Shown one piece after another: positions 804 through 25,290 of a stretch of 44,140 bases of DNA. Every line of letters begins with the position of its first letter. The stretch's first letter is position 1. The stretch is taken from contig JAUNDN010000006.1 in assembly GCA_030526045.1 (NCBI GenBank), positions 38,094 to 82,233 on the forward strand, written 5' to 3'. The translations under genes were made by a program, and so were the position numbers. The notes beneath the pieces are model-generated. The model was not told where the DNA came from. It made no database searches and saw nothing but the letters and a program-made list of their open reading frames with translations. The DNA comes from Bacillota bacterium (GTDB lineage: Bacteria; Bacillota; Clostridia; Lachnospirales; Lachnospiraceae).

Positions 804-850
804 GGTACATCCAATTCTCATAAATGCATAAAAATGTCATTTACGAAAAT

Positions 851-951: not shown

Positions 952-967
952 TTATTTAACTGTACTA

Positions 968-10964: not shown

Positions 10965-11321
10965 CTACTTTTTCATCTTGGGATTGAAGAAAAGACTCGC
11001 CAGATAGCCAAAGATTAAAGCTGCTGAGGTTCCCACTGCTCCTGCCTTAAAGCCGCCGGTAAAAAGCCCCATGAAGCCCTCCTGGTCAACAGCCTCCTTT
11101 ACACCCTTCATCAATACATTCCCAAAACCAAGAAGCGGTACGGAAGCTCCCGCCCCTGCAAAATCCACAAAAGGCTGATACCAGTTAAAAGCGCTGATCA
11201 GGGATCCAAGGCATACCAGAAGCACCATGATCCTTCCCGGCAACATTTTCGTCTTTTCCATTAAAATCTGAACCAGTGCACAAATCAGTCCACCCACCCA
11301 GAATGCATTAAAATAATCCAT
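10965..11321 (-). CDS. spoVAE: Stage V sporulation protein AE (SpoVAE, SpoVAC/AEb family)
   Basis: A 118-aa membrane subunit of the SpoVA channel that moves dipicolinic acid into the forespore and out during germination. The family signature is seen in FVDFAGAGASVPLLGFGNVLMKG, parallel to the FGGAGALVPITGFANS stretch of SpoVAC in this window. There are about four membrane segments. The ATG at 11321 is preceded by AAAGGAGG at ideal spacing; a longer reading frame to 11387 overlaps the upstream gene and is unlikely. It is separated from the other spoVA genes but has its own sigma-G-like promoter at 11367-11397, whose -35 lies in the end of the MBL gene. Confidence 0.93.
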   Translation of the reverse strand: MDYFNAFWVGGLICALVQILMEKTKMLPGRIMVLLVCLGSLISAFNWYQPFVDFAGAGASVPLLGFGNVLMKGVKEAVDQEGFMGLFTGGFKAGAVGTSAALIFGYLASLFFNPKMKK

Positions 11322-11366
11322 GATAACCTCCTTTACGGCATTCCCTGCCGGATTGTTCTCATGGAT

Positions 11367-11397
11367 TATTATGTGCACAGATTTCACTTTTCATTCC
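11367..11397 (-). promoter_or_regulatory. Sigma-G-type promoter of spoVAE
   Basis: GGAATG (11392-11397), 18-bp spacer, CATAATA (11367-11373) on the minus strand. Sigma-G sites follow roughly GMATR-N17/18-CATNMTA, so both boxes fit. The -35 overlaps the last codons of the MBL gene, giving spoVAE an independent forespore promoter with a leader of about 40 nt. Confidence 0.72.
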
Positions 11398-12142
11398 CAC
11401 AGTGTAACGTATCGGAATTGATCATAAATTCTTTCTTTTTCTCCGATACATCCTCGATGCTTCCCGCAAACCTCCTGCCAAGAGAAGTCTTTTTGTAGCT
11501 TTGAATAATCTGATAGTCATCCCACATATGCATGGGAAAGATATGATCCGCCTCTGTTTTTTCAAGAAAATAATCAAGTCCCAGATGATAACCGTCAGAA
11601 AGCCTTGGATCAAGAGGCACAAAGGCAAGATGAAAGTGCCGTCCTGCAATCCGGTCAATTTCTGCATGGTAATCCCGTTCCATCCGGTCATTCCAGCTTT
11701 TCGGCTCCTCTTTCCAGTACCAGTGGTTTAAGTCTCCCGCATGATAAATGGATACTCCCTCCACCTGCACCAGAAAAGCAACACCTACGTCTGTAGAGCG
11801 CAGCGCCTCCACGCGAAACTCCCCCGGAAGCTCATAGCACTCTCCCGGACACATTCGCTTTGTCCTTTCAAGGAGTGCCGGGGATAAACCCTTTTTGGCA
11901 AGATAAGCTTCGTTCAATTTAATATCATTTCCAAAAAAATAACTGGCATTCGGGGAATGCGTTTCTCCCCACTTGAGTACCGACAGCTGAAAATGATCCT
12001 GATGCTTATGGCTTGCAAAAATGATCAGCTTCTTTCCCTCCGGCACTGCCGGAAGCTCTCCGCGATAATAATCAAATACCAACAGATGCCGGTCAAGCTC
12101 CACAGCAAAACCGCTGTGATAAAGATAGGTTACCTGAATCAT
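11384..12142 (-). CDS. MBL-fold metallo-hydrolase
   Basis: A 252-aa metallo-beta-lactamase-fold hydrolase, probably cytoplasmic. The metal motif HKHQDH lies at residues 45-50 (HxHxDH), another His in IYHAGDLNHWYW, and a late His in FPMHMWDDY. The pattern resembles the UlaG/YycJ-like branches rather than beta-lactamases. The substrate is unknown. It starts 6 bp after the DMT permease, whose last codons carry its AAAGGA site, so the two are translationally close. The sigma-G promoter of spoVAE begins inside its 3' end. Confidence 0.85.
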   Translation of the reverse strand: MIQVTYLYHSGFAVELDRHLLVFDYYRGELPAVPEGKKLIIFASHKHQDHFQLSVLKWGETHSPNASYFFGNDIKLNEAYLAKKGLSPALLERTKRMCPGECYELPGEFRVEALRSTDVGVAFLVQVEGVSIYHAGDLNHWYWKEEPKSWNDRMERDYHAEIDRIAGRHFHLAFVPLDPRLSDGYHLGLDYFLEKTEADHIFPMHMWDDYQIIQSYKKTSLGRRFAGSIEDVSEKKKEFMINSDTLHCGNEK

Positions 12143-12148
12143 ATTTTC

Positions 12149-13042
12149 TTATTCCTTTTGTTTTTCTCCCACTGGGAGCTGCACCAGAATCACTGCTCCG
12201 AAAACCAACGCGCAGCCAATCAGCTCTCTCCCGCTCAGTGCCTGCCCCAAGATCACCCAGCCGGCCAGCATGGAGACAACAGATTCCAGCGACAGAATCA
12301 GGGATGCCACCGTAGGGTCGGAATCCTTCTGTCCCACCACCTGCAAGGTGTATGCCACACCGCTTGACATGATTCCCGCATAGGCGAGAGGAATGATGCC
12401 GTCAATAAAGTTGGAAATCTGAGGCTTCTCCAAAATGAGTGCAAGAATGCTGCAAATAATCCCCGCTGTCAAAAATTGCAGACAGGAAAGCTCCACACAA
12501 TCCGCCTTGGGAGCAAAATAATCGATTACCAGAATATGTACCGCAAAAAGGATCGCACAAATAAACACGTAGGTATCGCCCTTGTTCAAGGAAAATTTTT
12601 CACTCATGCAAAGAAGATACATGCCAAACGCCGCGATCACCGCCCCGATCCAGACCCTTCCGGGCACCTTTTTCTTCAGAAAAATCCCCAAAATGGGAAC
12701 AATGATAATATACAAGGTCGTGATAAATCCGGCTTTTCCTACCGTTGTATACATGATACCGATCTGCTGGCAAAGCGCCGCAGCACAAAGTGCAAGACCA
12801 CAGCAACAGCCTCCCAGCAGCGTAATTTTAAGTCCGGCCCGTTCCACCTGTTTTTCCCGGTCCTTCTTCCTGCGGACAAGCACAAGCGGAAGCAGAACCA
12901 CGCTTCCCAAAAGAAACCTTGCCCCATTAAAGGAAAACGGTCCCATATAATCCATTCCGACGCTCTGTGCCACAAAGGCAACGCCCCAGATGGAGGCAGC
13001 CATAAACAGCAAAAGGCTACTTTTCAAAGATACTTTTTTCAT
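12149..13042 (-). CDS. DMT-superfamily permease (EamA, two repeats)
   Basis: A ten-helix inner-membrane transporter with two EamA repeats (about 5-140 and 150-290). AASIWGVAFVAQSVGMDYMGPFSFNGARFLLG marks the first repeat, and YAGIMSSGVAYTLQVVGQKDSDPTVASLILSLESV the second. Family members export amino acids or other metabolites; the substrate is not predictable here. The ATG at 13042 is preceded by AGGAG at seven bases, better than the ATG four codons upstream. It sits 21 bp after aroK and 6 bp before the MBL gene in a tight leftward run. Confidence 0.9.
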   Translation of the reverse strand: MKKVSLKSSLLLFMAASIWGVAFVAQSVGMDYMGPFSFNGARFLLGSVVLLPLVLVRRKKDREKQVERAGLKITLLGGCCCGLALCAAALCQQIGIMYTTVGKAGFITTLYIIIVPILGIFLKKKVPGRVWIGAVIAAFGMYLLCMSEKFSLNKGDTYVFICAILFAVHILVIDYFAPKADCVELSCLQFLTAGIICSILALILEKPQISNFIDGIIPLAYAGIMSSGVAYTLQVVGQKDSDPTVASLILSLESVVSMLAGWVILGQALSGRELIGCALVFGAVILVQLPVGEKQKE

Positions 13043-13063
13043 TTGTCTCCTCATTTCATTCTG

Positions 13064-13570
13064 TTATTTATCCCAGTCCGTAATTTGTTCGGCAATTTCC
13101 TCTACTACCTGCCTGATACTTTTTCCGCTGCATTCTATCACCACACCTGCATACCTTTCATACAGGGGAACCCTTTCTTCATAAAGTTCAAGCAACGTGT
13201 ACCCTTCTTTCAGCACGACACCTCTTTCATGCAGATCTCCCAGCCGCTCCTTTAGCTCCTCGTAAGGGAGTTTCAGATACACGATTTGTCCCATTTTACC
13301 AAAATGAGACATGGCATCCTTTCCGTAAACCGCACTGCCCCCTGTAGCAATCACAGTATGATCTGCAATAATGGAGGCATTGATTTCATTTTCAAGCATA
13401 AGAAAACCTGCTTCGCCCTTCTCGTCTATGAGCTGGTAAAGCAGTTTTCCGCAGGTTTCCTGAATGACCAGATCACTGTCAAGAAACCGATATCCCAGCT
13501 TCTTGGCAAGCACAACACCTACTGTGCTCTTTCCTGATCCCGGCATTCCAATTAAAACTACATTCTTCAT
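13064..13570 (-). CDS. aroK: Shikimate kinase
   Basis: A 168-aa cytoplasmic kinase that converts shikimate to shikimate 3-phosphate in the chorismate pathway. Walker A GMPGSGKST is at 8-16, the shikimate-binding DSD at about 32-34, the Walker B-like ATGGSAVYG at about 78, and the lid/adenine region contains YEERVPLYERYA. The start ATG overlaps the ridA stop as ATGA, a sign of translational coupling. No other shikimate-pathway gene is in the window, so it is an isolated aroK. A longer frame adds 10 residues with no ribosome site. Confidence 0.92.
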   Translation of the reverse strand: MKNVVLIGMPGSGKSTVGVVLAKKLGYRFLDSDLVIQETCGKLLYQLIDEKGEAGFLMLENEINASIIADHTVIATGGSAVYGKDAMSHFGKMGQIVYLKLPYEELKERLGDLHERGVVLKEGYTLLELYEERVPLYERYAGVVIECSGKSIRQVVEEIAEQITDWDK

Positions 13571-13944
13571 TTTACAACCGCAATGACTTCTACTTCGCAA
13601 AGCACATCCTTGGGAAGCTGCTTCACTGCTACACAGCTTCTTGCCGGCTTTCCGGTAAAATACTTTTCATAAACATTGTTAAAGGCGGCGAAATCGGACA
13701 TCTCTGCCAGAAAACAGGTCGTCTTCACGACACTTTCATAGTCAGCGCCCGCTTCCTTTAAAATCTCGCCCACATTCTTCATCACCTGCTGCGCCTGAAC
13801 TGTGATATCTCCCTCGGCAATTGCCCCTGTTTCAGGAATGATCGGTATCTGTCCTGATGCAAACAAAAATCCGTTTGCGATAATTCCCTGGGAATAAGGT
13901 CCGATAGCTGCGGGTGCTTTTGTTGTTGCTACTTTGGTTAACAT
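13567..13944 (-). CDS. ridA: RidA family enamine/imine deaminase
   Basis: A 125-aa RidA (YjgF/TdcF) protein, normally a trimer. It hydrolyses reactive 2-aminoacrylate-type enamines released by PLP enzymes such as threonine dehydratase. Conserved parts: AAIGPYSQGI, FASGQIP, the catalytic Arg102 in PARSCVAV and Glu117 in the LPKDVLCEVEVIA tail. GGAGG precedes the ATG. It is coupled to aroK by a 4-nt ATGA overlap. Confidence 0.94.
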   Translation of the reverse strand: MLTKVATTKAPAAIGPYSQGIIANGFLFASGQIPIIPETGAIAEGDITVQAQQVMKNVGEILKEAGADYESVVKTTCFLAEMSDFAAFNNVYEKYFTGKPARSCVAVKQLPKDVLCEVEVIAVVK

Positions 13945-13976
13945 AACTCATCCTCCATCCTTTTCTTTCTGTCATT

Positions 13977-14210
13977 TCATGGTTCGTCAAACTCTGCCGT
14001 CACGTAAAATCCCCGTTCATTTTCAACAATGTCCACTACCTTTCCGTTTCGTGCAAGCATTCTTTCCCGAAACGGGTAATTTCCTGACATGGCAAGGGAG
14101 GGATCGATCGTATAATAATAGTTGCTGGGAAGCACACCTTCCGTCACCGTAATCTCATCGCCAACCTGCAAAAGTCCCGGGCGTTCCATCTTAAACTCCA
14201 TTCTTCGCAT
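13977..14210 (-). CDS. Small conserved-looking protein, function unknown
   Basis: A 77-aa soluble protein I do not recognise. It is mixed acidic/basic with a VGDEITVTEG stretch and a C-terminal GKVVDIVENERGFYVTAEFD stretch that looks like a small beta barrel. It has no signal peptide or membrane segment. It is real by context: GGAGG seven bases before the ATG at 14210, 32 bp before ridA and 39 bp after the MFS gene. Another ATG three codons downstream is possible. Its beta-rich KOW/PRC-like look is only an impression. Confidence 0.7.
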   Translation of the reverse strand: MRRMEFKMERPGLLQVGDEITVTEGVLPSNYYYTIDPSLAMSGNYPFRERMLARNGKVVDIVENERGFYVTAEFDEP

Positions 14211-14249
14211 GTGCATCCCTCCGTTCCTACTATTGTAATCGTCCCGGTC

Positions 14250-15476
14250 TTATTTTTCAAGCTCTGTGCCTGCAATTTTACCTGCATGCAGTGTTTTCTT
14301 TGGCGGTTCTGCCGCTAAAAGCATGATCACCATTCCTACAAGCCCCGATCCGGTTGCAATCATCAGCATATTTGTGACTCCGCTGTGATCGATCAGCGTG
14401 CCTCCAAGCAACGCTCCGATCACACTTGCAAGTGTATAAGTCATAGTCATATAGGCCTGTCCTTTGATTGCATCCTGTTCATCCATAATGGAATTCACAA
14501 AATAAACGGAGGATACGGTCATCAATCCCCAGCCAAGCATCTGAAACAGCTGTATGCCGTAATAAGCAGGAATATTAGGCGCCAGCAATGATCCAAGCGC
14601 CTTCAGCATAAAGAAAATTCCCGAAATACGAAACCAGATATCACACCTTACCTTTTTCAGCATATAGCTGAACAGAAACAATGTAGGCATTTCCACAAAG
14701 GCAGCAATCGCTATGGCAATCCCCATCTCCTGGCTTCCGCCACCCTTACTCTCCACGATCTGGAAATTAAAGCTGTTGATCAGCACATGACTGATATAGA
14801 CCAATGTACATCCAATCAGCACCACACCGAATCTTTTGTATTTTTTCAGGAATGATACCGGATCACTGCCGCTTATTCCGGCTTCTTTCGGCAATTCCTT
14901 TATCTGCTTGCGAAAGGGAAATAACAGCAGGCTGATAAATAATGCCACCGAGAGTACCATGACGGAGACCGGCAAAGACACGGCGCCTGCCCCTGAAATA
15001 ATGCCGCCAAGTGTATAAGCAACGATCGCATATCCCACAGAGCCCATCCCTCTTGCCACACCAAAGTTCAGTCTTTTTCCCTGATTGATACTCTCCATAC
15101 CAAGGGAATTTACAAATGGGGTAAGAAGCTGAAGGATCGTCAGACAGCAGCCATAAAACAGACCTGTGAAAAGGAGAGATTTCCGGTAAGTAAGAAGGAG
15201 CAATCCTCCCAGTATCACCTGAGATCCCATAAGCAGGGCTATGATTCTCCTAAGAGAAGGGCTCTGCGGCTGATCCGCATAGCCTGCCAGAGCCGGCTGT
15301 AAGACCGCCGATACGATACCCGCAATAGCAATCAGCATACCAATCCGGGTATTGGAAAAGCCACAGTCCAGTAAATAGACACTGGCAAAGCCCGAGATGC
15401 CTCCATATACCATCCAGTAAAATCCCTGAATAAATGCATAACGCACTGTCATATTTTTTTCAGAATTACTCATCAT
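14250..15476 (-). CDS. MFS transporter (MFS_1-like, LacY/NupG-type)
   Basis: A 408-aa permease with twelve predicted membrane helices. The N-terminal half starts RYAFIQGFYWMVYGGISGFASVYLLDCGFSNTRIG, which is typical of the MFS_1_like group related to nucleoside and lactose:H+ symporters. The loop after helix 2 has AGYADQPQSPSLRR instead of a strict GxxxDRxGRR. The substrate is unknown. A double ATG follows AAGGGAAAAT. It is only 22 bp after spoVAB, so forespore transcripts could read into it; no separate promoter was seen. Confidence 0.88.
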   Translation of the reverse strand: MMSNSEKNMTVRYAFIQGFYWMVYGGISGFASVYLLDCGFSNTRIGMLIAIAGIVSAVLQPALAGYADQPQSPSLRRIIALLMGSQVILGGLLLLTYRKSLLFTGLFYGCCLTILQLLTPFVNSLGMESINQGKRLNFGVARGMGSVGYAIVAYTLGGIISGAGAVSLPVSVMVLSVALFISLLLFPFRKQIKELPKEAGISGSDPVSFLKKYKRFGVVLIGCTLVYISHVLINSFNFQIVESKGGGSQEMGIAIAIAAFVEMPTLFLFSYMLKKVRCDIWFRISGIFFMLKALGSLLAPNIPAYYGIQLFQMLGWGLMTVSSVYFVNSIMDEQDAIKGQAYMTMTYTLASVIGALLGGTLIDHSGVTNMLMIATGSGLVGMVIMLLAAEPPKKTLHAGKIAGTELEK

Positions 15477-15498
15477 ATTTTCCCTTCACAAATACTCA

Positions 15499-15996
15499 TT
15501 ACATTCCGGTAAGAAATATCTCTTTTGAAAAATATAAAAAACTTCCCAGCAGTTTTCCCGCAGCAGCTGCCGTAATGGCAATCCCAAGCCCATGCCGGAA
15601 ACCGATTCGCCTTGCAAAAATGGGAATGGAGTCAAGCATTTCAGCAATGGCAAATGCAAGACAACCAACAAACATCCCCGCAAAAAGTCCCATTATGATC
15701 AAAAACAGAATTCCGATGAAGGTCCAAATTTGCTCGGTCCATCCTCCAAAAAACTGATTCTCCCGAACAAACTCTCCAATCGGAAGACTTTCCGCATACA
15801 AACTGGAAATGCCGCCAACCAGCGTACCGAATATAACTGCCTCCTCCAACACGAAAATCTTCTGAGCCACATGCATCTTGCCTGCAAACCGCGGAATCAA
15901 TCCTACGGAGGCCAGCACCGTAAAAACTCCTGCCGATGAGAGCAGTCCAAAGGAGAGACCGCAAACTCCCAAAAGAAGCTGCCTAAGAAACATCAA
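15499..15996 (-). CDS. spoVAB: Stage V sporulation protein AB
   Basis: A 165-aa membrane protein with about five hydrophobic segments, recognised as SpoVAB by its FxxGLSSGAGVFT-like N terminus, the IPRFAGKMH loop, and a C-terminal FARRIGFRHGLGIAITAAAAGKLLGS segment. In Bacillus it is encoded with spoVAA and needed for dipicolinate uptake. It overlaps spoVAA by 14 nt. GGGAGGG lies nine bases before a TTG at 15996 that is directly followed by ATG, so translation may begin at either codon. Confidence 0.88.
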   Translation of the reverse strand: MMFLRQLLLGVCGLSFGLLSSAGVFTVLASVGLIPRFAGKMHVAQKIFVLEEAVIFGTLVGGISSLYAESLPIGEFVRENQFFGGWTEQIWTFIGILFLIIMGLFAGMFVGCLAFAIAEMLDSIPIFARRIGFRHGLGIAITAAAAGKLLGSFLYFSKEIFLTGM

Positions 15997-16612
15997 TGCT
16001 TTGTCCCTCCCTGTCTGCAGTCTCGATCAGCGCTTTATTTACATCCGTCTCGTAAGTGCGCATTTCCACCTCAATCGGTGTGGGATCCTTGGTAATCCTT
16101 CTTCCCCCCACATGGTTAAAAAACAGGATAATTCCTGCTGCCAGCCCAACAGAGTAGGAAGCCTCTAAAATACTGTACCCATCCGAAGGATATCCCATGA
16201 CAAGCTCATAAACCTTAGAAAAAATCTTATTGATACTGATATCATTGTGGAATGCCATGATGGTAAAGCCTGTTCCAAAGAAGCTGATTGCAGCGACAAA
16301 GGCAGTTTTCACCCACTGTACCGGACCCTTATGCCTGTCTACATTGACCAGTTCAATCACGGTGGCAGTTTCACCAACGCTCTGCACAGTAACTCCGGGA
16401 CATTCCCTTTCAATCAGTTCTATCACCTTCAGAATACTGACCACCTGGCGCTTTTGCTCTTCTTCATGGAACTGATGAACCCGCAGTGACTTCGCCTTGG
16501 CACAGACAGACTTTTCACGGCAATAAACGGAGGCAATGTCCTTCACGCATACCTGCGCTTCCATTACCTCCGCATTCTGTTCTGCTTTTAAATATAAAAC
16601 GGTATTTGCCAT
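15983..16612 (-). CDS. spoVAA: Stage V sporulation protein AA
   Basis: SpoVAA has an N-terminal soluble domain (about 1-95, starting with TVLYLKAEQNAEV and carrying the VYCREK patch) followed by two membrane segments near 103-125 and 145-165. It forms the membrane-proximal part of the SpoVA system with SpoVAB. The second of two tandem ATGs (16612) has AGGAG at six bases and is preferred. A near-perfect sigma-G promoter lies 29 bp upstream. The gene follows the exported EEP protein gene by 57 bp, and its 3' end overlaps spoVAB. Confidence 0.9.
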   Translation of the reverse strand: MANTVLYLKAEQNAEVMEAQVCVKDIASVYCREKSVCAKAKSLRVHQFHEEEQKRQVVSILKVIELIERECPGVTVQSVGETATVIELVNVDRHKGPVQWVKTAFVAAISFFGTGFTIMAFHNDISINKIFSKVYELVMGYPSDGYSILEASYSVGLAAGIILFFNHVGGRRITKDPTPIEVEMRTYETDVNKALIETADREGQSIDVS

Positions 16613-16640
16613 CATTCTCTCCTGCTTTTCTTTTTCAGGA

Positions 16641-16670
16641 TAGTATGACCTTATTTACTATTTTTATTCT
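16641..16670 (-). promoter_or_regulatory. Sigma-G promoter of spoVAA-spoVAB
   Basis: AGAATA (16665-16670), 17-bp spacer, CATACTA (16641-16647) on the minus strand. The -10 is identical to the Bacillus sigma-G consensus and the -35 fits GMATR. The start should lie near 16634, about 20 nt before the spoVAA start. The -35 overlaps the EEP stop codon. Confidence 0.85.
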
Positions 16671-17748
16671 ATTTCAAGAAAAACTGCATGATTACCGGGT
16701 CATGATCCGAAAACTCATATCCCCAGTCCATATTCTGATAAAAGTTCACGCTTACATTGTCGGAAACAATAAAGCCATCCAGAGTGACGGTATAAGTAGT
16801 TTCAGGGTTATAGGGTTCCCCTGCACTCCTGCAGCTGTTGTGTGCCACATCCTCCGAATCCCTGATTTCATCAATTGCCAGCGAAAAACCTTCCGGAAGG
16901 CCTTCTCTCGGAAACGGATATGCCCATTCCGGTGCATTTTCCTCCGTCTCCTCCCTCAGATTCTGATTAAAATCCCCTCCGCAGATCACATAATTTCCTT
17001 TTTGGTAATCCGCAATCATATCCTGATACAGCATGGAAAGCTGCCCTTCCCTGATCTTATCACTGCTTCCGTAAGCCGACATATGCATATTGTAAATACA
17101 TAGCTGTTTCCCATTCTGCGCAGGAATCCTGGACACGGAATAGCATCTGTCCAGATCCAAAATCTTGCTGAAGGACTCCGAAATCGGAAGGCTTCTTCTC
17201 ATAGCAGATGCAATCTGCCCACGCGAATAAGTAACGATACCACTCTGATTGGCGCCATGAGGCTGCCAGGGCGGAAAGAACAAATAGGGAGAATCATAAT
17301 TTTGAGCGAAATCATAGTAGTACCCCTTCATGAATTGGTTCAACAGTTCCAGTTCGTCCACATGATGGGCTCTGGTTCCGTCCCTGTCCACCTCCTGCAA
17401 AAGCACAAAATCCGGATTAACATCATTGATGATCTCACCCATCCCCGAAACAGCAGCAAGCACGCTCTCCTCATCTTTCGCCCGGGCGGATTTTCCGCCA
17501 TCCATAAAGAAGCTGAAATCCTTCCTGTAAGCACCAAAGCCAATGTTATAGGTCATAATCATGTAGGCTCTTCCCGTTTTCACGCTAAAGTCATCGGAAA
17601 AATAGGTGTTTTCACCGTTTCGCCCGACCTCCAGAGTCAGATTGTCCGGCAGTCTGTAATAAGTACTAAATACATATCCTGCATAAATCCCCAAGGCTGC
17701 AATCAATAAAAAAACCAGCAATAGGATCTTTTTTACTTTCTTTTTCAT
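16669..17748 (-). CDS. Membrane-anchored endonuclease/exonuclease/phosphatase (EEP) family protein
   Basis: A 359-aa protein with an N-terminal signal anchor (about 7-29) and an outward-facing EEP domain, the fold of DNase I, sphingomyelinases and inositol phosphatases. Catalytic signatures are TYNIGFG, LLQEVDRDG (metal-binding Glu), YNMHMSAYG, GGDFNQN (Asp-Asn pair) and the final FSDHDPV (Asp-His). All catalytic residues are present. The substrate could be nucleic acid, a phospholipid or a sugar phosphate outside the cell. An extended -10 promoter is seen 36 bp upstream. The gene end carries the -35 of the spoVAA promoter. Confidence 0.85.
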   Translation of the reverse strand: MKKKVKKILLLVFLLIAALGIYAGYVFSTYYRLPDNLTLEVGRNGENTYFSDDFSVKTGRAYMIMTYNIGFGAYRKDFSFFMDGGKSARAKDEESVLAAVSGMGEIINDVNPDFVLLQEVDRDGTRAHHVDELELLNQFMKGYYYDFAQNYDSPYLFFPPWQPHGANQSGIVTYSRGQIASAMRRSLPISESFSKILDLDRCYSVSRIPAQNGKQLCIYNMHMSAYGSSDKIREGQLSMLYQDMIADYQKGNYVICGGDFNQNLREETEENAPEWAYPFPREGLPEGFSLAIDEIRDSEDVAHNSCRSAGEPYNPETTYTVTLDGFIVSDNVSVNFYQNMDWGYEFSDHDPVIMQFFLK

Positions 17749-17783
17749 GAACCATACACCTTCTGTCCTTGTTCTCTCTATTT

Positions 17784-17792
17784 AGTATACCA
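17784..17792 (-). promoter_or_regulatory. Extended -10 promoter of the EEP gene
   Basis: TGGTATACT on the minus strand is a TGn-extended -10 (17784-17792). No good -35 precedes it, only a pyrimidine-rich stretch. It lies between the unrecognised 582-aa gene and the EEP gene, so the EEP gene may be expressed separately. Confidence 0.45.
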
Positions 17793-17814
17793 GAAAAAAA
17801 GGAAAAAGGATGTT

Positions 17815-19563
17815 TTATTTCTTTAATTCCAGAACATAGTTTACGGAAGGAGTCATTTGCAAGGTGATTTTGTGGTCAACTGCCGCCATTTCGCAGCCTG
17901 TGATCAGATTTTTCACTGAGCTGTACCCCTCTCTTAGCCTTAACGTAACACTCTCTGTATAGAGCATGTCGGAACGGACGATCACCTTATCATTATCATA
18001 TACAAATAGCTGAACCAGCGCAGGTCCCTCCACTACAGCCGGCATATTCCCGGAAAAGAGTTCCCGGATCACGCCAAGCACCTGAGCAGGGTAATGGTAA
18101 AGATCACCCATATCATCCGGAATTGTGATTACGCTGATATGACCTGTTCCATAGGCACAGCGAAGAACGATAGGAAAATTATTATCCGTTCCGTAAGCAG
18201 CTGCCAGCTCCCATACATCATTGGTGCAATAATCCAGCTGCGGAATCAAAACAGGCTTTCCACCGGCATACTTCCCGCTAACCGTAAGTCCGTTATCTTT
18301 GGTATCCGCATATTCATGTACAATTGCTTTTCTGGAGGAATAGGAAATATTTACAAACTCCTTCCGGAAGGCCTCACCAAGCTTTCTCACAAAGCCACTG
18401 GTAACGATCACATCAGCACCTTCCGTAATCATGCTCTCTTTCATCTTGTCTATGATCTGTGCATCATCCGCAGCCCCCTCTGCCAGGAAAATAACCTTCT
18501 CCCTCTCAGGATAATTGATACAGGGTGCAAAGGGGACACCGCACATCCCCAGATAATTATGTAAATTGTCTTCTCCTCTGGCGTTAGCCGGTCTGTATGC
18601 AGCAGCGCCCACAGGGTTTCCCAGCTGCCCCATAAAGCCGTCAATCTCATCAAACATAGCTCCCAGGGCTGCCGGGAATACCTGATATGCCGGATCATTG
18701 ATCAGCGAACCCAGGCAGAATAAAGTCACTTCTTTTGCTTTGGCAAATAAAGTCAGATAGCCCTGTTCCAGATAAGAGGTCAGATTGTAGGTACATTCAT
18801 ACGGATCAAACCAGCCGCCAAGATTTCTCCCCGGGGCTGCACTTTCCAGATAACGCATCACAAAATAGCTCAGATATTTGGGCAGGTGCTGCTGTGCATA
18901 AGCCGGATTCCTGGTTTCTGTTCCCGTATAAATAGAGTCGAAGATTGCAGGCTCCATCTGAAGGTCATAGCCTGTTTCCTGAAAAGCCTCATACCACTGC
19001 GGGAACTTCACAATGACATTTATGTCAGGATTTATCTCCTTTGCTGTCTTCATGACAATTTCCTCAGTGATCCATTTCTTCTGCTCCAGACGAAACTGTG
19101 ACCAGGAACGCTCACCCTTTTTCTCAATGCAGTCCTTGCAGCGGCAGTTCAGAAAATAAAAATCATCGAAGATAAACTCATCAAAAACCTCTGCATTGAT
19201 TTCCACTGCCCGCTTCAAAATATCCATCCCCTCCTGCCTTGAATAGCACAGGGATACAAAGCCTTCATTATTCCCTGCTCCACAGGTGGTGATTCCTCCT
19301 GATGCAGCAATCCCTTTACTCTCAAAATACGCCTTCACCTTAAGGAGCTGCTCCTTGCTGCACCATTTAAGGCCTCTATAGCATTCCAGATATGCACGTC
19401 CGATCTTTACATTGCCGTAAAGGCGCTTAAACTTTCTGTCGAAATCGTCAAAATCTGTAATACTGTTGATATTTTCAACAGGACAGTAAACGCTCACATT
19501 AAAGTTCTTGTAGCTTGTTACCTTTTCTCTTTGTGCCAAACCTTTATTTCGCATTTTTTCCAT
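17815..19563 (-). CDS. Uncharacterised glycoside-hydrolase-like barrel protein
   Basis: A 582-aa cytoplasmic protein, no signal peptide. Residues about 18-330 look like a TIM barrel, with FDEFIFDDFYFLNCRCKDC (about 129-147) carrying acidic residues and three closely spaced Cys. Residues about 335-420 read like a Rossmann/trimerisation domain (VIFLAEGAADDAQIIDKMKESM), and the tail is a beta-rich region. This order resembles GH42-like enzymes, but I cannot assign a family. The ATG at 19563 follows GGAGGG; a longer frame adds 19 residues without support. It lies 138 bp downstream of spoVAD and may be transcribed with it. Confidence 0.6.
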   Translation of the reverse strand: MEKMRNKGLAQREKVTSYKNFNVSVYCPVENINSITDFDDFDRKFKRLYGNVKIGRAYLECYRGLKWCSKEQLLKVKAYFESKGIAASGGITTCGAGNNEGFVSLCYSRQEGMDILKRAVEINAEVFDEFIFDDFYFLNCRCKDCIEKKGERSWSQFRLEQKKWITEEIVMKTAKEINPDINVIVKFPQWYEAFQETGYDLQMEPAIFDSIYTGTETRNPAYAQQHLPKYLSYFVMRYLESAAPGRNLGGWFDPYECTYNLTSYLEQGYLTLFAKAKEVTLFCLGSLINDPAYQVFPAALGAMFDEIDGFMGQLGNPVGAAAYRPANARGEDNLHNYLGMCGVPFAPCINYPEREKVIFLAEGAADDAQIIDKMKESMITEGADVIVTSGFVRKLGEAFRKEFVNISYSSRKAIVHEYADTKDNGLTVSGKYAGGKPVLIPQLDYCTNDVWELAAAYGTDNNFPIVLRCAYGTGHISVITIPDDMGDLYHYPAQVLGVIRELFSGNMPAVVEGPALVQLFVYDNDKVIVRSDMLYTESVTLRLREGYSSVKNLITGCEMAAVDHKITLQMTPSVNYVLELKK

Positions 19564-19701
19564 AAATGATAACCCTCCTGATGCTTTTTCACCATGTGAA
19601 GATGTGCCCGGAAGGCACACCCTTCAAGTACACCCAAAGGATACCATTTTTCATTTTGGCATTCTATGACGCTTCCGCCTGGATATTGTATAAATCTCTC
19701 T

Positions 19702-20739
19702 TCATTTACAGCTCACAAGCTCCACTGCGTGAGCAATTCCCGGAATGCTCTGTCCCTCGTTGAAGCTTGTCTTGCTGAGCAGGGCTCCTGTGGGAACGAA
19801 CAGGACTCTCTTCCACTTTCCTTCCTCAAGTTGCTTTAAAATATACGCTGAAAGCACCACGGCACAGCAGCCGCAGCCGCTTCCTCCCGCATGGGCGTCC
19901 TGACTTTGATCATAAATTTCCATACCGCAATCCATATGAACCTTGGAAATATCCATTCCCTTTTCCCGCATCATGTCCCAAAGTGCCTTCTGTCCCACGC
20001 TTCCAAGATCTCCGGTAATAATCTTGTCATAATCGGAGGGCTTTCTCTCAAAATCTGTCAGATGCTGATAAATGGTATCGCAGGCAGCCGGTGCCATGCA
20101 GGCTCCCATATTCATGGAATCCTTCAATCCGAAATCTACAATTTTGCCAACCGTGAGTCCCGCAATCATTGCACGGTCATTTTCACTCTTCACACTGCTC
20201 AGGACAAAAGCACCGCTTCCTGTTACCGTCCATGAAGCAGAAAGGGGACGCTGGTTCCCGTACCCCAACGGATACCGGAACTCCTTCTCCGCACTGGCAA
20301 AATGACTGGATGTCACACAGGCTGCATGCTCTGCCATTCCCCCTGCTATCATGACCGTGGCCATGGAAATTGTCAGGGCACAAGTAGAGCATGCACCATA
20401 CATCCCCACAAGCGGAATCTGAAAGGATCCTAATCCAAAAGTACTTGCAATAGATTGACCAAGCAAGTCACCCGCAAACAAATACCTGATTTCTTCCTTG
20501 GAAATCCCGGATTTACCGATTGCAAGCGTAAGCGCCTCCTTCTGAAGCGTGCTTTCCGCTTCCTCCCAGGTATCAGCACCAAACCGGTCATCCTTACCCA
20601 CCACGTCGTACTGATTGCCAAAGGGTCCCTGTCCTTCCTTGGTTCCCGCCACTGACGCGCTTGCTCTTATATAAACAGGAACCGGAATCTTAATGCTCCT
20701 TTGTCCCTGTGAAAAAATAGCTCCAACTGCTTCTTCCAT
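19702..20739 (-). CDS. spoVAD: Stage V sporulation protein AD (dipicolinate-binding)
   Basis: A 345-aa thiolase-fold protein that binds dipicolinic acid and is part of the SpoVA channel at the forespore inner membrane. Recognisable segments are the DDRFGADTWEEAE helix, the LFAGDLLGQ loop, the MYGACSTCA segment, PLGYGNQRPLSASWTVTGSGAF and the GGSGCGCCAVV C-terminal patch. Length equals the family norm. GGAGG plus seven Ts precede the ATG; that GGAG is in the 3' arm of a hairpin (20748-20788). A sigma-G-type promoter is embedded so that its transcript starts in the loop. nhaC lies upstream, separated by 89 bp. Confidence 0.94.
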   Translation of the reverse strand: MEEAVGAIFSQGQRSIKIPVPVYIRASASVAGTKEGQGPFGNQYDVVGKDDRFGADTWEEAESTLQKEALTLAIGKSGISKEEIRYLFAGDLLGQSIASTFGLGSFQIPLVGMYGACSTCALTISMATVMIAGGMAEHAACVTSSHFASAEKEFRYPLGYGNQRPLSASWTVTGSGAFVLSSVKSENDRAMIAGLTVGKIVDFGLKDSMNMGACMAPAACDTIYQHLTDFERKPSDYDKIITGDLGSVGQKALWDMMREKGMDISKVHMDCGMEIYDQSQDAHAGGSGCGCCAVVLSAYILKQLEEGKWKRVLFVPTGALLSKTSFNEGQSIPGIAHAVELVSCK

Positions 20740-20747
20740 AAAAAAAC

Positions 20748-20788
20748 CTCCAGATGATTTACTTTTGCTTAGTCTTTCTCATCCGGAG
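20748..20788 (-). terminator. Hairpin overlapping the spoVAD ribosome site (terminator of nhaC)
   Basis: CTCCGGATGA (20779-20788) pairs with TCATCTGGAG (20748-20757), ten pairs with one G-U, across a 21-nt loop, followed by GTTTTTTT. On the minus strand this is a good intrinsic terminator for the MBOAT-SGNH-nhaC transcript. Its 3' arm contains GGAG of the spoVAD ribosome site, so read-through RNA would also have that site masked. Confidence 0.7.
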
Positions 20789-20799
20789 ATTTTTATTCC
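20770..20799 (-). promoter_or_regulatory. Sigma-G-type promoter of spoVAD
   Basis: GGAATA (20794-20799), 17-bp spacer, AAGACTA (20770-20776) on the minus strand. Five of seven -10 bases match CATACTA. The expected start is near 20763, within the loop of the 20748-20788 hairpin, so this transcript lacks the hairpin's 5' arm. Confidence 0.68.
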
Positions 20800-20828
20800 T
20801 TCATTTATTTATGAATTTTTAGATAACT

Positions 20829-22202
20829 CTATGTTTCCTTTTCTCTCCCATACCCTGTGATGATACTGAAAGCCAGGATCACCAGCATACAGATCGAATA
20901 ATAATTGACAAATGGAATGGAGGAAGGAACCACCGTAAATTTCTCACCGAACTGGGCCGTCAGCTGGGCCGGAATCACGCAGTGCACCGTCCACGGAGCC
21001 AGAAAACAGAACACGCAGCCTGTACAATCTAAGAGGTTTGCTCTGCGGTAACGATCCACGCCTGCCTTCTGTCCCACCTCATTGACCAGATCACCAAGAG
21101 CCACAATAGCAACGGAAATCACTCCCGTAATCATACTCAAAATTCCTGTGGAAAGTACGATCGCAGTTTCAGCGCCGGCTTCACTTTTTGCAATTTTATG
21201 CAAAAGCTTCCCCACATCCTCAAATAATCCTCCCGCTTCCATGACCCCCAAAAGGGCAAAGGCAGCAATCAGCATAGCTACCGTTCCCGCTGTTCCAAGG
21301 ATCCCGTCCACCAAAAGTCCTGATACTGAAAATCCACCGGGAAAGGCAAGGAGATCGGAAGGCTGATAAATTCCAAAGATAAGCCCTGTGGCTACACCCG
21401 CCAAAATACCGTAGGACATAGCTGTGATCAGATGCTTCCTAAGCAGACATAGCACGATAATGGTAACCGGAATGATCAGCATGACAAGGCTTAAGGGTTT
21501 CATCTCTGTACCGGCAGCTGTCTGCATAGCGGCACCGCTCTTACTTGTCCTTGTAAAAAGCAAAAACAGGAGCATGGCGCCCGCCGCTGCCGGAAGACTG
21601 TATCTCGTCCTTGTTTTTACCACCCGACCAAGTTCCGCCTCCTGCGTACTTGAGGAGGCGATCGTGGTGTCCGAAATCGGTCCCAGATTATCCCCAAATG
21701 CTGCTCCTGACACAATAGCACCGATCATAAATACAGGTTCCACTCCTGCCATCACGCCCACCGGAAATAAGATTGGTATCACCACAAAGTATGTGCCTAC
21801 CGAGGTTCCTGTAGAAAAAGCAAGAAGACAGGTAATCAGGAATGTTGCCGCCACAAACAGCTTCCCTGTAAATCCTGCTGCCACTACATAGGCAGCCAGT
21901 GTCTGTACCAGACCGCTTCCCGAGATCAGCTTCCCTGAGACCGCCGCAAGTATCACCGCAAGTACAATCACGCCAAACATGGGCTTGCCAAGTCCCTTTA
22001 CGATTGCCTCTCCATATGCCATATCATTCTTTACAAAGATCACTCCTGTAATCAAGGCTGCGAAGAATGCTACCACGTATCCGTTCACATTAGACTGATG
22101 AAATGCCGCAAAAAGAATGATCCCGGCGGTCACCAAAAGTGGCATCAGCCTTCCAAAACTTCCCAGCCTGAATTCCAAATGCTCCTTTTTATTGTCCATC
22201 AT
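20829..22202 (-). CDS. nhaC: NhaC family Na+/H+ antiporter
   Basis: A 457-aa antiporter with about eleven membrane helices. The family marks are STGTSVGTYFVVIPILFPVG and the ion-site loop GAAFGDNLGPISDTTIASSS (about 165-184), followed by the C-terminal NLLDCTGCVFCFLAPWT helix. NhaC-type proteins exchange Na+ for H+ or carry amino/organic-acid exchange (malate:lactate in MleN), so the true substrates are open. The double ATG at 22202 lies inside the end of the SGNH gene (14-nt overlap) with GGGAG upstream, so it is coupled to that gene. A terminator that overlaps the spoVAD leader follows. Confidence 0.88.
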   Translation of the reverse strand: MMDNKKEHLEFRLGSFGRLMPLLVTAGIILFAAFHQSNVNGYVVAFFAALITGVIFVKNDMAYGEAIVKGLGKPMFGVIVLAVILAAVSGKLISGSGLVQTLAAYVVAAGFTGKLFVAATFLITCLLAFSTGTSVGTYFVVIPILFPVGVMAGVEPVFMIGAIVSGAAFGDNLGPISDTTIASSSTQEAELGRVVKTRTRYSLPAAAGAMLLFLLFTRTSKSGAAMQTAAGTEMKPLSLVMLIIPVTIIVLCLLRKHLITAMSYGILAGVATGLIFGIYQPSDLLAFPGGFSVSGLLVDGILGTAGTVAMLIAAFALLGVMEAGGLFEDVGKLLHKIAKSEAGAETAIVLSTGILSMITGVISVAIVALGDLVNEVGQKAGVDRYRRANLLDCTGCVFCFLAPWTVHCVIPAQLTAQFGEKFTVVPSSIPFVNYYSICMLVILAFSIITGYGREKET

Positions 22203-23244
22203 CTGTTATCTCCCTTTCTTCCGTGCCATGGGATAACAAGAACTGCTTCCACAAATCATTATACTTTCCAAGCAAATGGATCTGGTCAAAGGTATATTCT
22301 GCATTCAGGTTTCCTTCCTCGTCACAGACCACTTCATTCACATCAATATAAAAGATCGTCTCATTGTCAGCCAGGGTAGCGATTGCATGATTTCTTGCAT
22401 TGATGTTGCTGTTGTTAAAAATCGCATCACTTTCGTTCTTTTTGCCGGATACCCTCATAATCCCCTGAATCATAATCTTTGCTTCGGGCTCCAGCTCATG
22501 AAGGGTATCAATGACCTCCGTATATTTCGCCATAAAGTCTTCCGTCGTTCCACGTCCCAGTTCATTGATGCCCACCATCAAATAGATTTTCCCGTAATCC
22601 TTACTTGCCAGCGCATCCGGAATTGTTCCCTGACCTTTAAAGTTTTCCTCCATCACCTTGTAGATCGTGAGCGAGGTTTCACAATAAAAATCTGCATGCC
22701 CGGAAAGATCCGTGTAGTCCCTGAGTCCAACTGTCCTGGAATCTCCGATGAATAATGCATCATCAAAATAGCTTTCATCCACCTGTATAAATTCATAGTC
22801 CGCCGCATGAAGTATTCCCACATCCCCATAAATATCCGCCGATATATGATTGATATATTCATCATAAGTACTCTCACGAAGGGGCTCCGGCCGCTCAAAC
22901 GGTATCTGTTCTGCCTCCGGCGTAGGGCTCGGTGATGGCAGGGGAGTAGGCGTTACCTCCGGTGAAGGTAACGGTTTGTCCGGTTTCTCCGGTTCTTCCT
23001 GCGGCACTTCTCCACCGATTTCCACTGTCTGATTTCCGGCTTCAATGCTTTCTGACTGAAGCATCTGCCACGGGTAGATATCATCATTCATCGCCGTGAA
23101 CATGACCGACAAGACCGGTGCCTTCAAAGGGTCGTACTCCTGTCCGGCGTAAATACCGGTTCTTCCGCAAATTGCGATTATGGAAAAAAGCAGTCCGGTA
23201 CTCAAAAGTAAAACAAGCAAAGGACACTTTTTCAAATATTTCAT
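22189..23244 (-). CDS. Secreted/membrane-anchored SGNH hydrolase-like protein
   Basis: A 351-aa protein with an N-terminal signal anchor (about 6-27), a Pro-rich linker (about 78-122) and a C-terminal SGNH domain. The catalytic Ser is in FIGDSRTVGL (about 168), the Asn in VGINELGRG, and the Asp-His pair in DQIHLLGKY (about 322). The preceding MBOAT gene is 18 bp away; MBOAT plus SGNH pairs usually move and attach acyl groups to cell-surface polymers (as in AlgI/AlgJ, PatA/PatB and DltB/DltD). Which polymer is modified here is unknown. AGGTGGGAAG lies upstream of the ATG. Confidence 0.85.
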   Translation of the reverse strand: MKYLKKCPLLVLLLSTGLLFSIIAICGRTGIYAGQEYDPLKAPVLSVMFTAMNDDIYPWQMLQSESIEAGNQTVEIGGEVPQEEPEKPDKPLPSPEVTPTPLPSPSPTPEAEQIPFERPEPLRESTYDEYINHISADIYGDVGILHAADYEFIQVDESYFDDALFIGDSRTVGLRDYTDLSGHADFYCETSLTIYKVMEENFKGQGTIPDALASKDYGKIYLMVGINELGRGTTEDFMAKYTEVIDTLHELEPEAKIMIQGIMRVSGKKNESDAIFNNSNINARNHAIATLADNETIFYIDVNEVVCDEEGNLNAEYTFDQIHLLGKYNDLWKQFLLSHGTEEREITDDGQ

Positions 23245-23262
23245 AGACTTCCCACCTGTCTG

Positions 23263-24639
23263 TTAAAAATTCAGATACATAAACGGATTTCCGGCACTAC
23301 TGCTGGCAAAGTAAATCGAGCACCAGAAAATCACCAGTAAAAACACCAACATAAGAGGATTCTTCTTATGCTTTTCAAAGAAACGAAACACTGTTGGAAT
23401 ACAAAGCACAATTCCTGCGAGAAAAAATATTCCATAATTTTGTGCATATCTGATAAAGTCCTGCTGATTGACTGCAATACCGGCACCTCCCAGGAAAGGA
23501 AAAAGCCTTCCGAAATAAATGCCCAGTTGTCCCGGATCCGTTATGGCAAATACAACCCATGTCAGGGGAATCACCAGCAGTACATAAAGACGTCCCAACA
23601 CCGGTATTTTACTTAAGTACTTACCGTAAAACAGCTTTTCCAGAATGATCAGAATTCCGAGAATGCTTCCCCAGATAATATAGTTAATGCCGTTTCCGTG
23701 CCAGATTCCCGTAAGGAGCCAGACCAACGCCAGATTAAATACAAGCTTCTTTTTATCGCAGCGGCTTCCGCCCAGAGGGATATAGACATAGTCCCGAAAC
23801 CAGCTTCCAAGCGTCATGTGCCATCTTCTGTAAAATTCTCCGATGCTTTTTGAAGCATAGGGATGATTAAAATTCTCAATAAAATTGTAACCAAGCATTA
23901 CCATTAAGCCGGAGGACATCAGCGAATATCCCCAGAAGTCAAAATAAAGCTGCATCGAATATCCCGCTGCTCCCATCCATGCCAGGGGTGTTGATATACT
24001 CTGAAATCCGATCATCTGCAGATCATTCCAAAGAATAGCAAGCCGGTCTGCCAGCAGGACCTTCATTCCAAGCCCCAGGACAAAGTATTTCAGTCCATCC
24101 TCAAACTGCTCCGGGCCACAGGTTCTTTCAAGGTCAAACTCTCCCTCATTATAGCGCATGATCGGGCCGGATACCACTTGGGGAAACATCACAAAATAAA
24201 GCATCACATACCGGAATTTAGGCTGTACCAGTATTTCACGCCTGTAGACATCCACCTGAAAGGAGATCATCTTAAAAATGTAAAAGCTGATTCCAAGCGG
24301 CAGCAATGCATTATCCACAAAGGTTCCGAGAAGCTTAAAAACTACTAAAATAATTACATCCAGCACTACCGCTCCGATCAGATATTTTTTGCGCGCTTCC
24401 TTCTGCCATTCATGGATGGAAAAGCCTTCTCCAAGCTCCCACTCCTTCCTGTCCAGCAGATAGTTAAGTATTGCCGCAATTATCAGAACCGGAATAAACA
24501 AAGGCTCTCCGACTGCATAAAAAACAATGCTGCCGACAAGAAGAACACACTCTCTATACCTTAATGGCGTCACAAAATATACAACTAAAAAAATCGGTAA
24601 AAACCGAAATAAGAATTCCAAACCGGAAAAACTGACCAT
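23263..24639 (-). CDS. MBOAT family O-acyltransferase (AlgI/DltB-like)
   Basis: A 458-aa multi-span membrane acyltransferase. Family signs are LPLGISFYIFKMISFQVDVYR, MFPQVVSGPIMRYNE, EFYRRWHMTLGSWFRDYVYIPLGG and the catalytic His in WLLTGIWHG (about 313). It would pass acyl groups across the membrane to the neighbouring SGNH protein for O-acylation of an exported glycan. The ATG at 24639 has AGGGG at six bases; an ATG five codons upstream lacks a site. It is the first gene after a good sigma-A promoter at 24683-24711. Confidence 0.93.
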   Translation of the reverse strand: MVSFSGLEFLFRFLPIFLVVYFVTPLRYRECVLLVGSIVFYAVGEPLFIPVLIIAAILNYLLDRKEWELGEGFSIHEWQKEARKKYLIGAVVLDVIILVVFKLLGTFVDNALLPLGISFYIFKMISFQVDVYRREILVQPKFRYVMLYFVMFPQVVSGPIMRYNEGEFDLERTCGPEQFEDGLKYFVLGLGMKVLLADRLAILWNDLQMIGFQSISTPLAWMGAAGYSMQLYFDFWGYSLMSSGLMVMLGYNFIENFNHPYASKSIGEFYRRWHMTLGSWFRDYVYIPLGGSRCDKKKLVFNLALVWLLTGIWHGNGINYIIWGSILGILIILEKLFYGKYLSKIPVLGRLYVLLVIPLTWVVFAITDPGQLGIYFGRLFPFLGGAGIAVNQQDFIRYAQNYGIFFLAGIVLCIPTVFRFFEKHKKNPLMLVFLLVIFWCSIYFASSSAGNPFMYLNF

Positions 24640-24682
24640 ACATTTCCCCTGCATTTCTCAAGTAGTAAAGACTGTAAATATA

Positions 24683-24711
24683 ATTGTATCACCGCTTATC
24701 CAAATCTACAA
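24683..24711 (-). promoter_or_regulatory. Sigma-A promoter of MBOAT-SGNH-nhaC
   Basis: TTGTAG (24706-24711), 17-bp spacer, TGA-extended TACAAT (24683-24688) on the minus strand, 44 bp before the MBOAT start. It is divergent from the spoVAC promoter; the two -35 boxes are about 30 bp apart. Confidence 0.7.
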
Positions 24712-24740
24712 GGAGTGACTTAAAGCCCTTGATTAATTTT

Positions 24741-24770
24741 TGCATATTTTTTTGTAAAGGAAACAAACTA
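24741..24770 (+). promoter_or_regulatory. Sigma-G-type promoter of spoVAC
   Basis: TGCATA (24741-24746), 17-bp spacer, CAAACTA (24764-24770). Six of seven -10 bases match CATACTA and the -35 fits GMATR. The start is expected near 24777, giving a leader of about 34 nt with AAAGGAAA before the ATG. Confidence 0.75.
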
Positions 24771-24810
24771 TAAGAAAAATCAGTTAGTGCATAAGCACAG
24801 AAAGGAAATT

Positions 24811-25290
24811 ATGAACGAACCCAAGAGTGAAGAACAGCTTAATCTCGAAAAGGACTATGAGGAATATGTCAAACAAATTACGCCTACCCACAATCTGTGG
24901 TTTCAAATGCTCCGCGCCTTTATCACCGGCGGCATCATCTGCCTGATTGGTCAGCTCCTGCTTAATTTTGCCTCAAACAATCTCGGTATGGATAAAGAAA
25001 TGGCAGGGAGCTTCTGCTCCCTGCTTCTGGTTTTCATAAGCGTACTCCTTACCGGCTTTAATCTTTATCCTTCCATTGTCAAATTCGGTGGTGCCGGTGC
25101 CCTGGTACCCATTACCGGTTTCGCAAACTCGGTGGCCGCCCCCGCAGTTGAATTCAAAAAGGAGGGACAGGTCTTCGGCATCGGCTGTAAGATATTTACC
25201 ATTGCCGGTCCGGTTATCCTATATGGAATTTTCACCAGCTGGGTGCTGGGACTCATTTATTGGCTATTGAAAATAATAGGAGTCCTTTAG
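24811..25290 (+). CDS. spoVAC: Stage V sporulation protein AC
   Basis: A 159-aa forespore membrane protein; the Bacillus homologue behaves as a mechanosensitive channel for dipicolinate release. A polar N terminus (1-40) is followed by about four membrane segments, with the family stretch FGGAGALVPITGFANSVAAPAVEFKKEG (about 90-117). The ATG at 24811 has AAAGGAAATT before it; a GTG eight codons earlier has no site. It is the only spoVA gene on the plus strand here and is transcribed alone from its sigma-G-like promoter. Its stop overlaps the stop of the CofE-like gene from the other strand, leaving no space for a terminator. Confidence 0.93.
   Translation: MNEPKSEEQLNLEKDYEEYVKQITPTHNLWFQMLRAFITGGIICLIGQLLLNFASNNLGMDKEMAGSFCSLLLVFISVLLTGFNLYPSIVKFGGAGALVPITGFANSVAAPAVEFKKEGQVFGIGCKIFTIAGPVILYGIFTSWVLGLIYWLLKIIGVL

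Follow-up and report, generated by a model that had tools for sequence, protein, structure and literature searches.

Proposed breakup of the spoVA operon in a Lachnospiraceae genome and a spoVAD leader hairpin that would insulate the gene from read-through

We analyzed a 44,140-nucleotide stretch of DNA (the window) from a Bacillota bacterium of the family Lachnospiraceae (GenBank assembly GCA_030526045.1, contig JAUNDN010000006.1, positions 38,094 to 82,233 of the forward strand), in which five spoVA genes lie within 14.3 kb (10965-25290): spoVAC is on the plus strand, and spoVAE, spoVAB, spoVAA and spoVAD are on the minus strand. The explanation that we favor, with moderate confidence, joins a breakup of the spoVA operon, forespore promoters of the separate pieces, and a fold-back lock in the spoVAD leader. 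In this lineage an ancestral contiguous spoVAA-AB-C-D-E operon would have come apart. A separate promoter would drive forespore expression of each piece (sigma-G-type for spoVAA and spoVAE, intermediate for spoVAC and sigma-F-like for spoVAD), and spoVAD would now stand downstream of codirectional, presumably vegetative genes. Read-through RNA from these genes would contain the 5' arm, form a 16-bp hairpin with a terminal U-run, and be terminated, or left untranslated since the Shine-Dalgarno (SD) sequence is paired. Because the 5' arm is part of the spacer that separates the -35 box from the -10 box, RNA from the spoVAD promoter should not form the hairpin: it would begin inside the loop, without the 5' arm, and its SD would be free. 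We infer this start site and sigma factor, the read-through, the termination or translational block, and the evolutionary order. In growing cells spore genes need to be kept off, yet spoVAD is found directly downstream of codirectional ordinary genes; a leader opened by the right promoter only would explain how spoVAD escapes read-through and how spoVA could be broken up repeatedly without loss of forespore timing. The hairpin was absent from the original prediction on this DNA and was added by the present analysis.

The typical spoVAD leader reads G[ACT]ATA, 17-18 bases usually with CTYCRGATGA, -ACTA, an A-rich stretch, TCATCTGGAGG, T5-7 and ATG. The leader in the window has a minimum free energy of -21.5 kcal/mol (z-score -5.6), and an equally good fold was seen in 0 of 200 shuffles; the final 29 nt of the leader alone gave -0.6 kcal/mol. 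The two arms are separated by a loop of ∼20 nt with a weak inner 3-bp helix. The predicted unpaired level of the SD was 0.00 in read-through RNA versus 0.68 in RNA starting at the predicted promoter start, which lies between the arms. Related loci (L numbers) were the best 80 of 550 loci encoding a SpoVAD relative, and L004-L038 are the clade loci used for counts. The alignment comprised the 36 clade leaders minus L014, L024 and L027, which carry insertions, leaving 33 rows of which 31 were distinct; L030 (fold lost) and L037 (misaligned) were kept. Among the 31 distinct leaders pairing is retained in 94.8% of the alignment cells, versus at most 63.0% when the partners are slid. Two-sided changes are seen in 10 cells, compared with 3.0 in shuffles (0 of 500 as high), and the covariation score is 0.206, compared with 0.169 in shuffles (1 of 500) and ≤0.090 after sliding. 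The genes, their layout, the promoter-like boxes, the hairpin and its covariation are features of the sequence itself. The distance from -10 box to ATG ranges from 28 to 82, while the spacing of the -35 and -10 boxes stays at 17 or 18 in 36/36 leaders; this is what would be expected of boxes that form a promoter and arms that pair as RNA. Searched against the host genome, a covariance model of the hairpin found one strong copy, at spoVAD (the next two had E-values of 0.59 and 0.70); in the 81 loci it found all 36 clade leaders, 33 of which had built the model, and weakly L074 (E 0.002), and, if the reverse strand of these leaders is set aside, other distinct places had E ≥0.2. At gathering score the spoVAD hairpin had no Rfam match, and a known Rfam element was rejected for it: the sole match in the window is a thiamine pyrophosphate (TPP) riboswitch elsewhere (839-955, minus strand, 63.6 bits).

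A leader was scored as locked if it had z < -2.5 and at least three of five SD bases paired upstream in the region -75 to +3; this definition was set after the first spoVAD leaders had been seen, and the z-scores come from random shuffles, so that reruns shift the counts slightly. In L004-L038, spoVAD leaders were locked in 30/35 cases, those of spoVAA in 4/19, spoVAE in 1/11, spoVAC in 0/28 and spoVAB in 0/18. Among 246 control leaders of 16 non-spoVA genes of these loci six were locked, five of them belonging to the gene at 28118. That gene (28118-28633, plus strand) encodes a 171-residue protein and has a locked leader in 5/24 relatives. In the loci L040-L083 we found locked leaders in 11/44 spoVAD and 5/24 spoVAE cases; in several of them the 5' arm, judged by eye, includes the -10 box. 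The spoVAE leaders of L054, L062, L066 and L072 show a short hairpin around AGATAGAAATATCT followed by a T-run directly before spoVAE; the same region in other species has the -10-like GCAGATACTA or GCAGAAACTA.

The original prediction had given each of four units a sigma-G-like promoter. The four strings are present at those genes, at one place each, and rough models built from family SASP (sigma-G) and gpr (sigma-F) leaders, with which we scanned 130 bp before each gene, picked them as the best sites in the window. The training sites (19 from 29 SASP leaders and 11 from 26 gpr leaders) were hand-picked from a scan with consensus strings for sigma-F and sigma-G, and the weights of the -35 box were chosen manually once the spoVA sites had been seen, which means that the promoter test is not fully independent. 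Against a control of 246 leaders of 16 other genes (95th percentile 13.2), scores above that level were obtained in L004-L038 for 18/19 spoVAA, 29/35 spoVAD, 8/11 spoVAE and 13/28 spoVAC leaders; for spoVAE five matches with <60% identity, which were SpoVAC hit by the SpoVAE query, had been dropped. In the window, spoVAA (13.5) and spoVAE (19.1) are above the level. The spoVAD leaders have the same -35 and -10 boxes in 36/36 cases (spacer 17 in 33 and 18 in 3), and the sigma-F score exceeds the sigma-G score in all 36, so the spoVAD promoter looks sigma-F-type, not sigma-G. By motif, the spoVAA and spoVAE promoters would be G-type and that of spoVAC, the least conserved of the four, intermediate between F and G. 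In C. difficile, sigma-F promoters retain a G upstream of the -10 box, according to the available part of PMC3789822. Forespore-type promoters are thus predicted before all four genes, and sigma-G for all of them is what was not supported. The four transcription units remain unproven: from spoVAA to spoVAE nine genes run in one direction with overlaps or gaps of ≤62 bp (taking the spoVAE start at 11321), and for this reason spoVAE may be read from the spoVAA promoter besides its own. What survives of the proposed coordinated forespore expression without an operon is the forespore-type promoters and the lack of a second operon; sigma-G throughout and a separate spoVAE unit were not supported as stated.

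All five proteins (SpoVAA, AB, AC, AD and AEb) exceed their Pfam cut-offs, which confirmed the predicted arrangement within 14 kb, split by unrelated genes and with spoVAC on the opposite strand. Between the model matches the distances are 8.3 kb for spoVAA-spoVAC, 4.2 kb for spoVAC-spoVAD and 8.4 kb for spoVAD-spoVAE, and since spoVAC is also inverted there is no contiguous operon. The original prediction had named a second intact spoVACDE elsewhere as a refutation; the draft host genome (2.68 Mb, 85 contigs, 90% complete, so that about one tenth may be missing) has no second spoVA copy, since both of its matches to PF03862 and its single match to PF07451 fall inside the window. That the dispersal could be an assembly or single-strain artefact is almost out of the question: the genome is a draft, but the same genes stand in the same order in other assemblies (e.g., L004, L023 and L031-L033), and we rejected this explanation. 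Inverted spoVAC, MBOAT, SGNH and spoVAD recur in this order in 27/35 of the loci L004-L038, some with extra genes inserted.

To place this arrangement, the layout was surveyed in 150 Lachnospiraceae genomes of different genera (G numbers), with spoVAA, spoVAC, spoVAD and spoVAE located among the matches listed, where some weaker spoVAC genes are missing; spoVAB was not located. Adjacency limits were our own (700 bp for C-D and D-E, 1500 bp for AA-C and 2000 bp for C-E), and pairs on different contigs were scored as not adjacent, some of which may be contig breaks. Among these matches all four genes were placed in 88 genera: 29/88 keep every one of the junctions AA-(AB)-C, C-D and D-E, and 8/88, host genome included, keep none, with all four genes on one contig in only three of the eight. 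spoVAC and spoVAE are contiguous in 34/92 Lachnospiraceae genera among the matches listed (22 apart, 36 on different contigs) versus 43/55 other clostridial genomes (1 apart, 11 on different contigs); single-contig cases give 34 contiguous and 22 apart in the family versus 43 and 1 in other clostridia. On this comparison we concluded that spoVA scattering is a habit of the Lachnospiraceae, of which the host genome is an extreme case. Locus L072, with spoVAA-AB-C-D followed by a 79-aa protein, RidA, kinase and EamA genes and then spoVAE, looks like an intermediate of the proposed breakup.

We then compared spoVAD leaders across genera. Among 105 genomes with a PF07451 match, G064 (split gene) and the weak matches of G034, G049, G050, G091 and G120 were excluded; 99 spoVAD regions were fetched, of which 97 were folded, a usable start being absent from G063 and G105. 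Locks were found in 10/59 genera in which spoVAC was not found beside spoVAD versus 0/38 in which the two are adjacent (two-sided Fisher 0.006). By a crude test, the upstream frame is codirectional for 8/10 locked versus 18/48 unlocked leaders (one-sided p 0.017), and 7/10 locked leaders have the partners of all their paired SD bases upstream of the predicted start. By eye, the layout recurs with different sequences in G001, G017, G042, G060 and G138, of which G060 falls outside the lock definition (2/5 SD bases). G138 and G001 may have leaders distantly akin to the clade hairpin, because covariance model R1 matches both weakly (E 0.0005 and 0.003).

Several results weigh against the proposed lock or its generality. 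Base pairs with two-sided change number three, which is not above shuffles (122/500), and sliding the partners by +1 gives six such pairs and nine two-sided cells (versus 10 unslid). Two clade members lack the fold, L030 (Parablautia intestinalis, z +0.75) and L027 (P. muri, z -0.02); isolates that have the lock include Lachnospiraceae bacterium 10-1 (L022) and 1XD21-87 (L015). In the window, the promoter scores of spoVAD (12.9) and spoVAC (12.1) fall just below the control 95th percentile. Among the genera, 49/59 non-adjacent spoVAD leaders are unlocked and the 10 locked ones include the host genome; the 59 divide into genes apart on one contig (5/23 locked), on different contigs (4/30) and with spoVAC not listed (1/6). 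For G009, G030 and G042 the automatic promoter call leaves SD partners that are not upstream of the start; a promoter seen by eye would fit in G042, and none was found in G009 and G030. RNA from the promoter start of G098 stays closed (0.09 unpaired). Nor are locks clearly enriched at spoVAA (3/60), separated spoVAE (1/18) or separated spoVAC (2/20), compared with 3/114 other open reading frames (ORFs); 60 of 97 spoVAA leaders had been drawn at random and 20 of 24 separated spoVAC leaders fetched. A lock as the rule for every head gene was rejected on these counts. The spoVAC leaders L366 (G044) and L358 (G017) have a hairpin-plus-T-run layout resembling that of spoVAD.

The strongest competing account, which we regard as unlikely, is that the hairpin is an intrinsic terminator of the upstream genes that economically overlaps the spoVAD promoter and SD, the hiding of the SD being a by-product. 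The run of five to seven Ts before ATG in 35/36 clade leaders and the A-run/T-run stem fit a terminator; a scan between the antiporter stop and spoVAD found no terminator-like site on the minus strand, its loop limit of 3-8 excluding the hairpin itself, and the leaders of G001, G017, G042 and G138 likewise end in T-runs. The stem is GC-rich and followed by the T-run, but the loop, at ∼20 nt, is long for a terminator. Moreover, the spoVAD leaders of G060, G095, G098 and G143 lack a T-run and still pair the SD or the bases around it, and the C/U variation of the 5' arm facing a near-fixed GGAGG fits SD pairing. For spoVAD the outcome, insulation, would be identical under a terminator: the sequence is compatible with termination and with mere lack of translation, and either would insulate the gene from those upstream.

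Two further accounts have less in their favor. We think it improbable that the hairpin also forms in the forespore transcript and acts as a signal-opened switch, as discussed for the small sigG ribosome-binding-site (RBS) hairpin in the available part of PMC5942855: the loop letters are largely kept among closer relatives, but the promoter-like boxes flanking the 5' arm at fixed spacing would then be a coincidence. Still more improbable in our judgment is a DNA operator without RNA structure. Forespore regulators such as SpoVT and RsfA exist, palindromes at promoters are often operators, and this inverted repeat does overlap a promoter. Against an operator, however, 61/496 hairpin cells are G-U, which fits RNA pairing; the arms are not a constant distance apart, L014, L024 and L027 having gained tens of bases by insertion; some other genera have the same geometry with different sequence; and the host genome has one strong model copy. 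The G-U pairs and the variable spacing led us to reject the operator.

Compared with the fold-back lock at spoVAD, its extension to other forespore genes is more tentative. With the same definition, locked leaders were found for sigG in 10/29, SASP in 6/29 and gpr in 2/26 cases (9, 6 and 1 in a rerun), and p-values versus the 3/114 other ORFs, which come from these same loci, were 5e-6, 0.002 and 0.23, respectively. Of the leaders locked in the rerun, 5/9 (sigG), 5/6 (SASP) and 1/1 (gpr) have all their paired SD bases directed to partners upstream of the predicted start, with some starts implausible. Fold-back leaders, with the anti-SD arm encoded in the untranscribed spacer or the -10 box, could be a general device of Lachnospiraceae forespore genes (sigG, SASP, spoVAD and at times spoVAC), giving immunity to read-through and letting spore operons disperse among vegetative genes; we hold this to be possible and on balance doubtful. 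About one third of the 29 Lachnospiraceae sigG leaders (set L216-L245) fold with the SD hidden; the locked ones are L217, L219, L220, L225, L231, L232, L239, L244 and L245, with L239 the strongest (z -7.2).

TABLE 1. Coordinates of spoVA genes, predicted promoters, the spoVAD leader hairpin and neighboring genes in the window.
Feature	Position	Strand	Remarks
spoVAE (Eb)	10965-11387	-	PF03862 127 bits; best NCBIfam TIGR02839 127.4 bits, just below 131.1 cut-off
spoVAE promoter, sigma-G-type	11367-11397	-	GAATG-18-CATAATA; overlaps end of upstream gene; score 19.1
Genes between spoVAE and spoVAB	11384-15476	-	Metallo-beta-lactamase-fold protein, EamA, shikimate/homoserine-kinase-like, RidA, conserved 79-aa protein, MFS
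spoVAB	15499-15996	-	PF13782 103 bits
spoVAA	15983-16615	-	PF12164 92 bits
spoVAA promoter, sigma-G-type	16641-16670	-	GAATA-17-CATACTA; score 13.5
Genes between spoVAA and spoVAD	16669-19620	-	Endonuclease/exonuclease/phosphatase-family (EEP) protein, 601-aa protein without Pfam match
spoVAD	19702-20739	-	PF07451 462 bits; above NF006160 cut-off, just below that of TIGR02845
spoVAD leader hairpin, 16 bp	20742-20794	-	3' arm carries GGAGG and T-run; 5' arm inside promoter spacer
spoVAD predicted forespore promoter	20770-20799	-	GAATA-17-AAGACTA, sigma-F-like -10; score 12.9
Genes upstream of spoVAD, codirectional	20829-24654	-	Na+/H+ antiporter, GDSL hydrolase, MBOAT acyltransferase
spoVAC predicted forespore-type promoter	24741-24770	+	GCATA-17-CAAACTA, intermediate F/G; score 12.1
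spoVAC	24787-25290	+	PF03862 151 bits; TIGR02838 160.6 bits, just below 164 cut-off

The features are collected in Table 1. The listed GTG starts of spoVAE and spoVAC are probably too early; relatives favor ATG 11321 for spoVAE and ATG 24811 for spoVAC. The gene set present is AA, AB, C, D and Eb; neither spoVAEa nor spoVAF was identified in the window, with no search aimed at Ea, and one gene of the GerA family, to which SpoVAF and the germinant-receptor A subunits belong, sits on another contig. The host genome also carries a SASP gene, gpr and a sigG-like gene (418 bits; the model's 457-bit cut-off was reached in 0/45 genomes searched). A sigma gene taken for sigF is found on the contig of spoVAA (C18:1533-2234), ∼52 kb away, and a comparable gene adjoins spoVAA in G012, for example. 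Among the interposed genes, the name aroK given by the original prediction agrees with a Pfam SKI match, while the best NCBIfam model is homoserine kinase, below its cut-off. The genes for the 79-residue protein, RidA, the kinase and EamA (12149-14216) travel together beside spoVAD or spoVAE in many more distant loci, some of them titled Acetatifactor or Eisenbergiella.

In Bacillus the spoVA genes form one operon. The window shares with it, and with spoVACDE of C. difficile, the same protein families and, by prediction, forespore promoters, and differs from both in that spoVA is split into pieces, spoVAC is inverted and the spoVAD promoter looks sigma-F-like. The C. difficile genes (CD0773-CD0775) are an operon of the sigma-G regulon, as given in the available part of PMC3789822. 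A literature search found nothing on spoVACDE in Lachnospiraceae, on spoVA operon synteny in Clostridia or on spoVAD with a terminator, promoter or ribosome-binding site, and the accessible portion of PMC3416734 lists spoVA genes without gene order.

The closest counterpart of the spoVAD leader is that of sigG. In B. subtilis a large hairpin in the sigG leader was proposed to keep RNA that reads through from spoIIG untranslated, and RBS hairpins of -6 kcal/mol or lower were reported for 4/13 clostridial sigG leaders (both from the part of PMC5942855 available). Like sigG there, spoVAD is a forespore gene downstream of a codirectional operon, and its hairpin would hide the RBS in read-through RNA and be unable to form in RNA from its own promoter; a stable hairpin pairing the SD in read-through RNA is indeed predicted for spoVAD. 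Unlike sigG, the gene and the sequence are others, the spoVAD arm ends in a T-run and the 5' arm lies within the -35/-10 spacer; the hairpin is also kept in 30/35 related loci, with covariation, and is seen alongside operon breakup. In IS10 fold-back inhibition and in the leader of phage T4 gene e, the SD is hidden in outside transcripts and free in transcripts from the proper promoter. Hiding of the SD in outside transcripts only is what the spoVAD leader would have in common with these mobile-element or phage genes, whereas spoVAD is a developmental gene. By analogy, the spoVAD leader would work like the proposed sigG hairpin and be a new case of it at another gene.

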